37,011 nucleotides of DNA, taken from a virus. How positions within the stretch are numbered: position 1 is the stretch's first letter; every line of letters starts with the position of its first letter. The stretch covers positions 1-37,011 of the IMG/VR virus record IMGVR_UViG_3300048592_000936; one strand, 5' to 3'. Positions 3,013 to 36,244 of the stretch are shown here, one piece after another. Under the pieces are notes generated by a model, which ran no database searches, was not told where the DNA came from, and was given only the letters and a program-made list of their open reading frames with translations. A program made the position numbers and the translations under genes.

Positions 3013-3041
3013 TCGGTCGATAACCCGTTGTTATCACCCGA
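3013..3041. repeat. Dispersed palindrome P1 (GATAA-N7-TTATC)
   Basis: Core at 3019-3035 with spacer cccgttg. Both 11-bp half-sites fit YCGNNYGATAA. It lies between the major tail protein and chaperone genes. A second hairpin family follows at 3036-3115 (CACCC-GAA-GGGTG, then CCATCACC paired with GGTGATGG). Confidence 0.85.
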
Positions 3042-3087
3042 AGGGTGGGCGCAAAGCGCCATCACCCGGTAGCTATAACCTTTGGGG

Positions 3088-3507
3088 TTATGACCAGGTG
3101 ATGGCGCCGGAAACTTTCAAAGTCACATCAGCGGTCTGCAAATCGTCCATGGGCATCGTTGGCTCAAAGCTTGTGACAATGGCGTCAAATTCAGCGGTCG
3201 TTTCTCCCACATCCGCAAAGACCAATTGAAAGCCGTTCTTTGTCCCCGCGCTCAGCAGCGTCACCACGCCCCCGGCCGCACTGGCACTGTGTGTGGTCAG
3301 CGCGGGATCATAGACGATATCAAAGCTCACTTCGCCGCCATCACGCAGCCCAGCGATAAATTCTTTTACCCCGCCCCCATCGCGATGCGTTGATTCAATC
3401 GCGTTCGCCGACATGCTCGGCCCGCTGAGATCTCGAATCTGGGCGATTGCCGTGTAAGTGCTGGCAATGTCAACCTTTAGGGTGCCTGCAAAACCAGAGT
3501 ACTCCAT
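3088..3507 (-). CDS. Major tail protein (tail tube)
   Basis: This 139-residue protein is likely to form the tail tube. It is beta-rich with few charged clusters (DGGEVSFDIVYDP, TAEFDAIVTSFEPTMP, ADVTLKVSGAITWS), matching small siphophage tube proteins of the lambda V or TP901 type. ATG at 3507 has a GGAGAAAG ribosome site. It lies downstream of the tail-completion gene and directly upstream of the chaperones, the canonical order. Its stop falls inside a hairpin (IR ATAACC/GGTTAT) that may reduce read-through after this highly expressed gene. Confidence 0.8.
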   Translation of the reverse strand: MEYSGFAGTLKVDIASTYTAIAQIRDLSGPSMSANAIESTHRDGGGVKEFIAGLRDGGEVSFDIVYDPALTTHSASAAGGVVTLLSAGTKNGFQLVFADVGETTAEFDAIVTSFEPTMPMDDLQTADVTLKVSGAITWS

Positions 3508-3518
3508 TATCTTTCTCC

Positions 3519-3845
3519 TTAGAGTGAAATCGCCGCCACCGTCACACTGGTAACCGACGAATAGGCAACAGCAACCCGCCCGCTGCTGTTGTTAAATAAG
3601 GCTGGCTCGTAGGGGCCTAGGTACTTGGTCGCCCCGCCGGCGACGGCCACCACGATATCTTCCAGGCTGTAGCCCTTCACCGTGTTGGTGGGTGCAATCG
3701 TCACATCAATGCTGCTGCCCCCGCCGTTGATCACCTTGAGCAAGGTCTTGCCATTGTTGGGGTATTGATCGCCACCGCCCGCTGCGGATGCAGCACTGGC
3801 CGCCAACCCTGCCGGCACCGCCTGTTGTACTGTCAAGACTGCCAT
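3519..3845 (-). CDS. Small structural protein, probably decoration or tail-associated
   Basis: The protein has 108 residues. An Ala/Gly-rich N-terminus is followed by a short beta-rich domain (LLKVINGGGSSIDVTI, VKGYSLEDIVVAVAG, YEPALFNNSSGRVAVAYSS). This layout is common in small phage surface-decoration proteins. The start is ATG at 3845, three bases after the stop of the tail-completion gene, and the gene ends 11 bases before the major tail protein start. Assignment as a structural accessory protein rests on composition and location; no diagnostic motif is seen. Confidence 0.65.
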   Translation of the reverse strand: MAVLTVQQAVPAGLAASAASAAGGGDQYPNNGKTLLKVINGGGSSIDVTIAPTNTVKGYSLEDIVVAVAGGATKYLGPYEPALFNNSSGRVAVAYSSVTSVTVAAISL

Positions 3846-34399: not shown

Positions 34400-35448
34400 C
34401 AGTCGGTTATAACTCCGATTTCGAGCACGTCAACGGTCGCCTGATTCCACACCCCGCCGTCGGGCCGCAACGCTCTGCGGTCCCAAGCCAAGGCGTAGGA
34501 TGTCCCCAGTACAATGGGCGAACTGCTCGCGCTGTGGTTAACCGCACTGACGGTAGTGCGCGTGTTGAGCTTCAAGTTCAACGATCCACCAGCATTCAGC
34601 TTCTTGACCACCGCCATTGCGATCACAGCGCTGATCTCCCAGCCCACCGATATCGTGGGGTTCGTCATGGTGTAGCTATCAATCTCGCCACTCCCAGCCG
34701 ACTCCACATACGACGTGTCCCCGTCGGGTGGCGTCTCATCCACCAGCAGATAGTTGTCCGTGCTATCGGCATCATTGCCGACCCATTGCGAAATGTAGCC
34801 ATTCCCGGCTGGTAGCACCGGCAGAAAGCGATAATCCGGCGGTGCAGCGGGCGCGCTTTCGCCTGTGGTGCTATCCAGATAGAAATCATCAATATAGAGA
34901 TAACTGTCCCAGGATATGTTTGTGCGGTCCGACCCAAAACGCACGGTATCCAGGGCCGAGACCGTGCCAATCGTGTCCCCGTCAAACTCGATGATAGCAA
35001 CCCCGTCAACATAGACATAAACCCAGCCCGCGCTATTGTCTAGTTTTAGGTCAATCGCAACATGGTGCCAGGCGTCTTCGGCGGCGAACTCGGCCGAAAG
35101 CACACTCGCGATCTGCGTGGTGTTTCGATACAGCCTAAACGTTGAGGCGTCGCCATCCCAACGCAGCTCGATGCCAATTGTCCCGCTGCCGGCAAAGGCA
35201 ATCAGACCAGGATCGTCACCCGCACCGGTGCCAAAATGGAGCGCGAAAAAGCCAACCCGCATTTGCGTGTAGGTCGTTGACAACACCAGGCTGGCGGTGT
35301 ACTGGTTCTGAAACCGGAAGCTATAGGTGCCGCTCTGCGCTTTCGTTGCACTCGTCGTAACCGCCACATTACTAACGCTTGTGAATTCACTGAGAATGTT
35401 ATTTAGCTCAGCACCAGCTTGATGCAGTCTGGTAATCGTCATGCCCAC
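34399..35448 (-). CDS. Tail protein with LamG-like domain
   Basis: The protein has 349 residues. SGTYSFRFQNQYTASLVLST, then WHHVAIDLKLDNSAGWVYVY with VDGVAIIEFDGDT and YLYIDDFYLDS form a laminin-G/concanavalin jelly roll (about 30-200). The C-terminal half is another beta-rich domain (PVLPAGNGYISQWVGNDADS). It lies between Dit and the hub, overlapping them by 10 and 1 bases (TGATG). It probably binds glycans at the tail tip or forms part of the baseplate. Confidence 0.75.
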   Translation of the reverse strand: MGMTITRLHQAGAELNNILSEFTSVSNVAVTTSATKAQSGTYSFRFQNQYTASLVLSTTYTQMRVGFFALHFGTGAGDDPGLIAFAGSGTIGIELRWDGDASTFRLYRNTTQIASVLSAEFAAEDAWHHVAIDLKLDNSAGWVYVYVDGVAIIEFDGDTIGTVSALDTVRFGSDRTNISWDSYLYIDDFYLDSTTGESAPAAPPDYRFLPVLPAGNGYISQWVGNDADSTDNYLLVDETPPDGDTSYVESAGSGEIDSYTMTNPTISVGWEISAVIAMAVVKKLNAGGSLNLKLNTRTTVSAVNHSASSSPIVLGTSYALAWDRRALRPDGGVWNQATVDVLEIGVITD

Positions 35449-36209
35449 CTATCCTTAAAGGTAATCGTCCAGTTTGCCCCATCGAATTCATAGGTGCCGA
35501 CTTGCAGCAACACATTGTTGCCCGGATGCAGCACGAACCAACCCTCGAGTGTGTGCAGCGCATCCAGCACCAGCCCCCCATAGGCATCTACCCCATCCAG
35601 CAACACCTGGCGTGCCCCACAGTCAATCACCAGCGAATCCCCTACCGGGATCGTCCCTTCCCATGTCAGCACCGCGCCCGGGCCCTCGAAGCTTGGATCG
35701 GTGATAATGTTGGTGCCGGCCGTGATCGTGATCACCACATCGGTCTGCGGTAGGTTGCCATAGTTGACCACCGTCTTTTCGATGCCAGGCACACCGCTTT
35801 CCGTGTGCTCCTCCCCTACCCAGGGCGACAACTGGGTAAAGTTCATCGTAATCTCAATGTAACGATCGTTCTCCACTTTGCGCATGTAGGGCATCGCATT
35901 CAGCCGGGCATCACAGGTATGCTGTGTGCTGTCTGCCTCCACCCGGCGTGTCAGTTTTGCCCGTGTGCCCACCACTGCCCGCAGCGCCGCCAAGGCTGCC
36001 TCAAAGGCCGCAGCACTTTCGCTATGGACCAGGGCGCGATAGGTCAACCCATGGGGGAACTGTTGCTGCGTACGGGCGATCCCGTCGGCGTCATAGATGC
36101 CAGCGGTCGTCTCCACCAGGCGCAACCGTGCACCTACTGGATCCATCGTCTCTTCGGTCATGCTGGTTGGCAGAATGATGTCGCCAAACTTCTCTAGATA
36201 GTAAGCCAT
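35439..36209 (-). CDS. Distal tail protein (Dit-like)
   Basis: The protein has 256 residues. It follows the tape measure gene and starts MAYYLEKFGDIILP. The middle (YMRKVENDRYIEITMNFTQL, SPWVGEE) and the C-terminal VNYGNLPQTDVVITITAG followed by a galectin-like half (TWEGTIPVGDSLVIDCGARQ) fit siphovirus Dit proteins, which form the hexameric ring joining the tube to the tip. Palindrome P12 lies between it and the tape measure gene. Confidence 0.85.
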   Translation of the reverse strand: MAYYLEKFGDIILPTSMTEETMDPVGARLRLVETTAGIYDADGIARTQQQFPHGLTYRALVHSESAAAFEAALAALRAVVGTRAKLTRRVEADSTQHTCDARLNAMPYMRKVENDRYIEITMNFTQLSPWVGEEHTESGVPGIEKTVVNYGNLPQTDVVITITAGTNIITDPSFEGPGAVLTWEGTIPVGDSLVIDCGARQVLLDGVDAYGGLVLDALHTLEGWFVLHPGNNVLLQVGTYEFDGANWTITFKDRWA

Positions 36210-36215
36210 TGTCTC

Positions 36216-36244
36216 CCGTCCGATAAGACCTTATTATCACCCCA
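36216..36244. repeat. Dispersed palindrome P12
   Basis: Core at 36222-36238, spacer gacctta, 10 bases past the tape measure stop. One outer base of the right half-site departs from consensus. Confidence 0.85.

Follow-up and report, generated by a model that had tools for sequence, protein, structure and literature searches.

What use does a phage have for twelve copies of one inverted repeat, each with a different centre, spread along its genome? The question is raised by IMG/VR record IMGVR_UViG_3300048592_000936, whose whole length of 37011 bases was analysed (the window, hereafter W) and in which the core GATAA-N7-TTATC occurs twelve times. PHROG and Pfam matches identify W as a tailed temperate phage with its structural genes on the minus strand and a G+C content of 57.7%. 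Its ends share a direct overlap of 127 bases, so that W is probably a complete circular or permuted genome, and the phrase "round the genome", by which a sequence-only reading of this DNA had described the distribution of the repeats, would then be literal. On the sequence comparisons described below, we consider it very likely that the repeats are the core recombination sites of a pair of tyrosine recombinases encoded by the phage itself. In what follows, G-numbers are whole records of relatives and L-numbers are loci.

The twelve sites of W

All twelve exact cores were found where the sequence-only reading had placed them. No other spacing of GATAA and TTATC from 0 to 17 bases is matched in W, spacing 18 is matched once, and 100 dinucleotide shuffles of W gave no GATAA-N7-TTATC site. 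Copies of the core with one mismatch are absent from W and from its relatives G001 and G002. The half-site YCGNNYGATAA holds, as had been claimed, in 22 of 24 cases; the sites at 22489 and 36222 depart from it in their right halves. Extended outwards, the arms read roughly YCGRSYGATAA, and the fourth base before GATAA is G in all 80 half-sites of the three phages. All twelve spacers of W are distinct. The sites and their neighbouring open reading frames (ORFs) are as follows.

3013..3041, plus strand: site P1, oriented spacer CCCGTTG.
5989..6017, minus strand: site P2, spacer CGGTTTG; directly past the end of the major capsid ORF 6022-7218.
8973..9001, minus strand: site P3, spacer GTCTTTA; lies in the opening ~70 bases of the listed head protease ORF 7684-9042, which may in truth start further in.
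12839..12867, plus strand: site P4, spacer TTCCCTA; shares bases with the stop codon of the portal ORF 12860-14467.
16092..16120, plus strand: site P5, spacer CGCCCGA; end of the small ORFs downstream of terL.
19621..19649, minus strand: site P6, spacer TGCCCGA.
22483..22511, plus strand: site P7, spacer TCCCCGA; within the last ~65 bases of ORF 22446-22946.
25743..25771, plus strand: site P8, spacer GCCGTTA; directly upstream of the AAA_25 helicase ORF 24494-25732.
28318..28346, plus strand: site P9, spacer GGCGTTG; upstream of recombinase 1.
30430..30458, minus strand: site P10, spacer TCATTTG; upstream of recombinase 2; its counterpart is the G002 site at 6003.
31817..31845, plus strand: site P11, spacer GTGTTTG; downstream of recombinase 2.
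36216..36244, plus strand: site P12, spacer GACCTTA; directly upstream of the distal tail ORF 35439-36209.

Arrays in related phages

Relatives were gathered by an IMG/VR scan with the W motif (103 stretches, of which 80 were listed), by a terminase search and by searches with each recombinase. This motif search, a check proposed with the sequence-only reading, showed that arrays recur in the phage group of W. The whole records G001 and G002 carry 12 and 16 cores of the W type, and G002 is colinear with five further contigs of its species. G028, with a terminase 68% identical to that of W, has 14 sites with different outer bases; G030 lacks W-type cores and has 12 sites of a separate type, in which the spacer is 6 bases long. 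In total, 25 multi-site records of this group carry 7-20 sites each, a number that is not a frequency, as whole records were fetched for 33 of 50 handles that were partly picked for a motif already present in the locus. Seven records (G003, G007, G021, G049, G077, G083 and G089) were left out of the tallies as duplicates, fragments or carriers of fewer than 7 sites.

In all 25 multi-site records, the best dyad score is obtained with a gap of 6 or 7 bases (G061 scores at both), as measured by a finder anchored only on AA...TT at the spacer edges. The arm ends vary by lineage, for example GATAA, CTAA, ACAA, CATAA and GGTAA. Thus, the arms change with the lineage and the geometry stays constant. 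Lesser scores occur at gaps 3-4, which we think are the same sites in another register, and at other gaps in some records (e.g., G053, G070, G072 and G078); in the locus-level scan, gap 4 scored above 20 in 15 of 96 loci. In records without a palindromic array, a search that used each of the 16 possible anchor dinucleotides, as well as unsymmetric gapped words, returned mostly clustered or tandem repeats and weak matches, and no array.

Among the 28 contigs from the motif scan that were counted over the whole record, at least four W-type cores were found only in this phage group and in G049. The latter, a phage of lower GC content, has five GATAA-N7-TTATC dyads within 1.2 kilobases (L201, 13665-14835), all with a single spacer or its reverse complement. 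In contrast to the array, this cluster looks, from its sequence, like ordinary repressor operators.

Position, spacing and orientation

The sequence-only reading had put the sites at gene borders, which is borne out by crude gene calls: none of the 12 lies more than 75 bases inside a called gene, versus 7.7 expected. By the same crude calls, gene interiors are avoided across the multi-site records, with 53 of 310 sites inside versus 215.5 expected. The sites are also evenly spaced. Gaps in W range from 1387 to 4399 bases with a coefficient of variation of 0.25; this coefficient is 0.17-0.45 in 23 of 25 records (0.54 in G074 and 0.55 in G061), compared with about 0.9 for random positions. The spacing is more even than that of random gene borders in 21 of 25 records (p<0.01). 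Relative to transcription, two W sites are co-oriented, eight are anti-oriented and two lie at strand switches. Both orientations are present in 23 of 25 records, with a skew in some; the counts are 0 to 10 in G072 and 2 to 0 in G061.

A directional site with two unlike arms

It had been noted that the outer bases of the two arms often do not pair. This observation was confirmed and strengthened, since over the 40 sites of W, G001 and G002 the two arms of a site are no more alike than randomly paired half-sites. This lack of covariation argues against an RNA hairpin, which we have rejected. In the same 40 sites, the spacer is symmetric at positions 2/6 in 3 sites versus 12.9 expected, and at positions 3/5 in 5 sites versus 14.1 expected. 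Asymmetry of the spacer exceeds the null by at least 2 standard deviations in 16 of 25 records taken singly. The sites are therefore directional. When oriented, the 40 sites read roughly GATAA-BNC-N-TTR-TTATC, with the right arm (AGTCGG) the more constant, and in G087 and G088 the two arms are plainly unlike each other. The more variable half of the spacer adjoins the weaker arm in 19 of 25 records, a count for which the orientation was fitted to the same data. As read from the sequences, the sites have the anatomy of tyrosine-recombinase cores that possess a direction and whose arms differ from each other.

Spacers as labels

Within a genome, identical spacers are found in 0 of 1869 pairs (25 records), compared with 4.2 expected from unrelated genomes. 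Pairs with at most one mismatch are also fewer than expected (25 versus 45.7), and the avoidance is mostly due to the 6-bp group (11 versus 27.4; 14 versus 18.3 in the 7-bp group).

Between close relatives, by contrast, part of the spacer is kept at matching sites. In seven W/G002 pairs, spacer positions 1, 2 and 4 agree in 6/7 each, versus 0.34, 0.31 and 0.26 in unmatched pairs, and position 6 agrees in 6/7 versus 0.75. The pair 19621/18508 was here replaced by 16092/22968 on gene order; the original list gives an identity of 15/21 over the first three positions. The three left-arm bases beside GATAA agree in 9/21, the same as in unmatched pairs, and the flanks (40 bases compared without gaps, so that insertions lower their identity) are 34-35% identical. 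In nine collinear G087/G088 pairs, positions 1-3 agree in 27/27, versus 0.45, 0.29 and 0.28, with flanks 37-39% identical; two pairs with swapped labels were left out, and counting them in place gives 27/33. G088 keeps the site order of G087 save for one swap and three extra sites. The swap lies at G087 32614-36018 and G088 13671-16829, where the same two labels stand in opposite order around non-homologous modules in the same genomic place. Each genome was oriented separately (G001 is flipped relative to W), and an orientation pooled over all relatives would be meaningless.

Spacer bases that differ between sites and yet are kept at matching sites are hard to explain by one binding protein, and pairing with another copy of the site does explain them. 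We infer that part of the spacer serves as a label read by DNA pairing.

The array goes with a pair of recombinases

The two tyrosine recombinases of the phage, to which the sequence-only reading had pointed, both match PF00589.

27053..28243, minus strand: recombinase 1, 396 amino acids, XerC-like tyrosine recombinase; catalytic R222, K251, H337, R340, H363 and Y372.
30850..31776, plus strand: recombinase 2, 308 amino acids, XerA/XerD-like tyrosine recombinase; catalytic R159, K184, H250, R253, H276 and Y285.

Recombinase 1 matches PF00589 at E=3.6e-20 and has the XerC model TIGR02224 as its best NCBIfam match, below the cut-off of that model. For recombinase 2 (E=3.2e-33), the XerA and XerD models are matched below their cut-offs, and XerA and XerD structures in the PDB are matched as well. 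Orthology to XerC/XerD was not found: the best NCBIfam matches of both proteins are Xer models scored well below the equivalog cut-offs, and both proteins are Xer-like. Foldseek aligned recombinase 1 with XerH, XerA and Cre complexes, on a weak AlphaFold model (mean predicted local distance difference test score 63) that served for this fold check only. All six catalytic residues are complete in 35 of 35 recombinase-2 and 25 of 25 recombinase-1 sequences aligned above the score limits.

A strong recombinase 2 is found in 23 of the 25 multi-site records and a strong recombinase 1 in 20. Counts by locus are less biased by selection; here loci shorter than 8 kilobases were left out, 14 loci belonging to the phage group itself were taken out of the controls, and duplicates were counted by contig name. 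Loci with both recombinases have a multi-copy dyad in 21 of 31 cases (18 of 27 contigs), each with a score of at least 40 and at least four copies. Of the ten remaining loci, nine (8 of 9 contigs) have one good palindromic site and no more, a good site being one in which 9 or more of the 11 arm positions are palindromic. An array or a lone good site is therefore present in 30 of 31 loci with both enzymes (26 of 27 contigs). Where recombinase 2 alone is present within the locus, so that recombinase 1 may lie outside, the dyad occurs in 8 of 53 loci, four of them at scores of 22-27, and at least one good site in 5 of 53. Recombinase 2 alone was thus rejected as sufficient for an array, 45 of these 53 loci lacking a multi-copy dyad of this form. 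The dyad was found in 8 of 66 control loci, seven of which score at most 35; the other, L043 (score 63), scored at every other gap tried too. Good sites occur in 18 of 66 controls, many of which were fetched by the motif itself, and the fair comparison for good sites is with the recombinase-2-only loci (5 of 53).

In five whole records of single-site relatives, the sole good site is no more than about 390 bases away from a recombinase gene. G014, whose recombinases 1 and 2 share 63% and 54% identity with those of W, has one site, exactly of the W type, upstream of recombinase 2. The site thus goes with the enzyme pair, and the array is one of two states.

Proposed use of the array

The first of the interpretations offered by the sequence-only reading, core sites of the dif type, is supported by the co-occurrence with the pair, the 6- or 7-bp spacers found across different arms, the asymmetry and the labels. 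That reading gave no purpose for having many sites, and the regular spacing together with the labels suggests one. Labels, even coverage, mixed orientation and dedicated enzymes are in keeping with a system that joins two genome copies at the same site. The sites, their direction, their labels, their spacing and their link to the recombinase pair are computational results; the mechanism and use set out next are a proposal built on them.

We envisage that each 11-bp arm is bound by one recombinase, with a separate arm assigned to each protein, and that the enzymes cut the sites and swap strands across the 7-bp spacer. The label, unique to each site, would confine recombination to copies of the same site, so that different sites of one genome would never be joined. 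With a site about every 3 kilobases, two genome copies overlapping by a few kilobases would share a usable pair. As the most likely use, genome copies could then be joined without host RecA, the terminally redundant, permuted DNA of the virion could be circularised after infection, and monomers could be converted to and from the multimers needed for headful packaging, which we presume for these phages. Among permuted headfuls, a single site would often fall outside the redundancy; with sites a few kilobases apart, a pair would be available in most cases or in every case. The principle would be that of Cre-lox in P1, except that many sites, none compatible with another, take the place of one, and it may also serve in-register exchange between relatives. 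That the use is the joining of genome copies, the circularisation of permuted redundant DNA and the conversion between monomers and multimers is, in our estimate, an even chance.

The terminases bear on this proposal. Consistent with it, the HK97-type terminase PF03354, a family typical of phages with cohesive ends, is found in 3 of 5 single-site records versus 0 of 25 multi-site records. The expectation on cohesive ends or headful packaging in single-site phages was reasoned before the terminase search and written down after it. End overlaps are present in 7 of 25 multi-site records. Terminase phylogeny predicts packaging in part only, and clades of unknown strategy remain (PMC9503643). ERF/RecT genes are absent from multi-site and nearly all comparison records (0 and 1 of 45), and their lack was dropped as support, the two sets being alike.

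Several observations weigh against the proposed enzymes, labels or use. Strong recombinase 1 is missing from G068, G069, G075 and G084, strong recombinase 2 from G053, and both from G037, through fragmentation or divergence. Spacer asymmetry falls below 2 standard deviations in 9 of 25 records taken individually. In the W/G002 pairs, positions 3, 5 and 7 agree in 4/7, 4/7 and 3/7, no better than in unmatched pairs (0.55, 0.60 and 0.41), and distant relatives do not keep labels (187 pairs; identity over the first three positions 0.32 versus 0.28). Self-joining alone needs no conservation of labels between phages, yet labels are conserved between close relatives. A lambda-type GpA terminase, of a family linked with cohesive ends, is present in at least three multi-site records (G055, G080 and G084), so that a rule by which many sites mean headful packaging is not strict. 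The terminase families tried gave no match in the single-site records G057 and G076 and in the multi-site records G074 and G086. Finally, Cre in vitro showed no preference for identical over non-identical spacers (PMC1479339).

If the proposal is true, these phages have arrived by evolution at a design that genome engineers assemble by hand, in which a single genome carries a set of orthogonal lox-like sites. Any two genome copies, whatever their ends, could be joined in exact register and internal rearrangement would be barred, which would give permuted genomes a RecA-independent route to circularisation, bear on modularity in an uncultured phage group and offer synthetic biology natural recombinase pairs with incompatible site sets. 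Thanks to the single-site relatives with similar enzymes, the transition from one site to many can be approached both by comparison and at the bench. In the openly licensed literature searched, of which parts were available, we found no phage with an array of dif- or lox-like sites; the closest systems listed there were MrpR/SPBRE, pdif modules and stoperators. It could go either way whether an evenly spaced, labelled array of 7-20 incompatible sites with an Xer-like pair constitutes a new principle of genome maintenance, one that replaces homologous recombination and doubles as in-register exchange.

Alternative explanations

The main role of the labelled sites may instead be an in-register swap of modules, either between relatives that infect the same cell or with prophages already resident there, by analogy with engineered recombinase-mediated cassette exchange at incompatible lox sites. 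We regard this natural cassette exchange as unlikely to be the main use. Close relatives do keep labels at matching sites when flanks and adjacent left-arm bases are not kept, and this conservation suggests that exchange between relatives matters too. Furthermore, G087 and G088 differ by non-homologous modules, one of which starts where homology stops, at 32613, beside the site at 32614. However, homology ends at many site-free places as well, and by a rough reckoning these ends are not clearly enriched at sites. Cassette exchange makes no specific prediction of even spacing, and the two labels swapped around one G087/G088 module are unlike plain in-register exchange.

The sites could also be operators at which an XRE protein, or a protein of recombinase fold such as MrpR of SPbeta, silences the prophage. 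Precedents exist: MrpR is a master repressor of tyrosine-recombinase fold that binds SPBRE in several intergenic regions (PMC10516654), stoperators are numerous and asymmetric in sequence (PMC9283540), and the P1 repressor binds 22 sites (PMC3973344). MrpR, however, retains only 3 of 7 catalytic residues (PMC10516654), whereas the six checked here are kept throughout both enzymes. It is not evident what part spacers that are distinct, mutually avoided and conserved would play in repression, and sites stand in both orientations to transcription in nearly all records. The XRE gene of W is the following.

28902-29354, plus strand: XRE-type repressor (PHROG and Pfam matches).

We have rejected XRE as the binder. 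Among the 25 multi-site records, only 4 have a strong match to the family and four more a weak one (27-42 bits), and the XRE promoter region contains none of the sites and has a separate repeat. An XRE search of viral contigs found nothing. With XRE patchy, its promoter region free of sites and the orientations mixed, the stoperator-like system put forward by the sequence-only reading is disfavoured, and repression in general seems to us quite improbable.

As a third alternative, the sites might be many attP sites, each spacer matching a different chromosomal target for integration in many places or hosts. An attP usually lies by int, and the only good site of single-site relatives does lie close to a recombinase gene; the phage also has a repressor and two integrase-family enzymes. 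On the other hand, neither even spacing nor the avoidance of similar spacers is predicted, and one genome-contig search with recombinase 1 revealed no integrated copy, which is weak evidence of absence. We hold this explanation to be very doubtful.

Host repetitive extragenic palindromic (REP)-like repeats, terminators or RNA hairpins, to which the gene-end position and dyad symmetry would be suited, can hardly account for arms that lack covariation, are specific to phage lineages and go with recombinases (phage records, not host genomes, were compared, and in these the W-type cores were confined as described above), nor is any of the six sites in 1-20000, the part of the window scanned, among the 13 terminator-like matches there. 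The host REP reading that had also been entertained is thus disfavoured.

Comparison with known systems

Two recombinases and short arms around a short asymmetric centre are familiar features of dif. Like Xer/dif, the system of W has two Xer-like recombinases and 11-bp arms ending in ATAA/TTAT around such a centre, 28-29 bp in total. Unlike Xer/dif, it is phage-encoded, with up to 20 sites per genome, differing spacers and arms specific to the phage lineage, and neither recombinase reaches the cut-offs of the NCBIfam XerC/XerD models. The length of dif is 28 bp (PMC3025954).

P1 cyclises its terminally redundant linear DNA via RecA or Cre-lox (PMC3973344). The system of W resembles Cre-lox as a candidate for phage site-specific recombination that could be put to the same use. 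P1 has one lox site and one enzyme, unlike W with 12 differently labelled sites and two enzymes. In Acinetobacter, pdif modules likewise place many XerC/XerD-type sites beside gene modules; they belong to plasmids with shuffled modules, unlike the colinear genomes, own enzymes and even spacing here. Module shuffling of that type was not observed, given the five colinear contigs of one species and the nearly kept order of G087/G088. The pdif modules rely on host enzymes.

Stoperators stand in a single orientation to transcription, which is not the case for the sites in the 23 records mentioned. SPbeta MrpR/SPBRE and mycobacteriophage stoperators resemble the array in having many protein sites across a phage genome, and MrpR shares the recombinase fold. 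In contrast to the intact active sites and labels here, MrpR lacks catalytic residues, a loss seen in neither recombinase, and its motif is 15 bp; stoperators serve repression, and the present sites are labelled.

Other features of the window

A scan of genome contigs with recombinase 1 recovered six relatives with 24-28% identity and no host or prophage. Genome bins of Anaerolineae/Anaerolineales and Armatimonadetes contain distant recombinase-1 relatives with 25-28% identity (L308-L312), which give at most a slight indication of the phage hosts.

A strong terminator-like hairpin with 16 pairs and a T-rich tail is located at 15279-15314 on the minus strand, away from any site. At 24157-24503, adjoining the AAA_25/winged-helix helicase gene 24494-25732, a 9-base unit (ATGGTAGTT) occurs six times with three inverted copies, followed by 3.4 copies of a 42-base unit that starts with ATGGTAGT; these repeats may form a replication origin of the iteron type. 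The interval that separates the XRE gene from its divergent neighbour (28747-28909) has the repeat TTTATGAGCAT at 28796 and 28899 and a near-inverse at 28769-28780, and these copies are candidate XRE operators.

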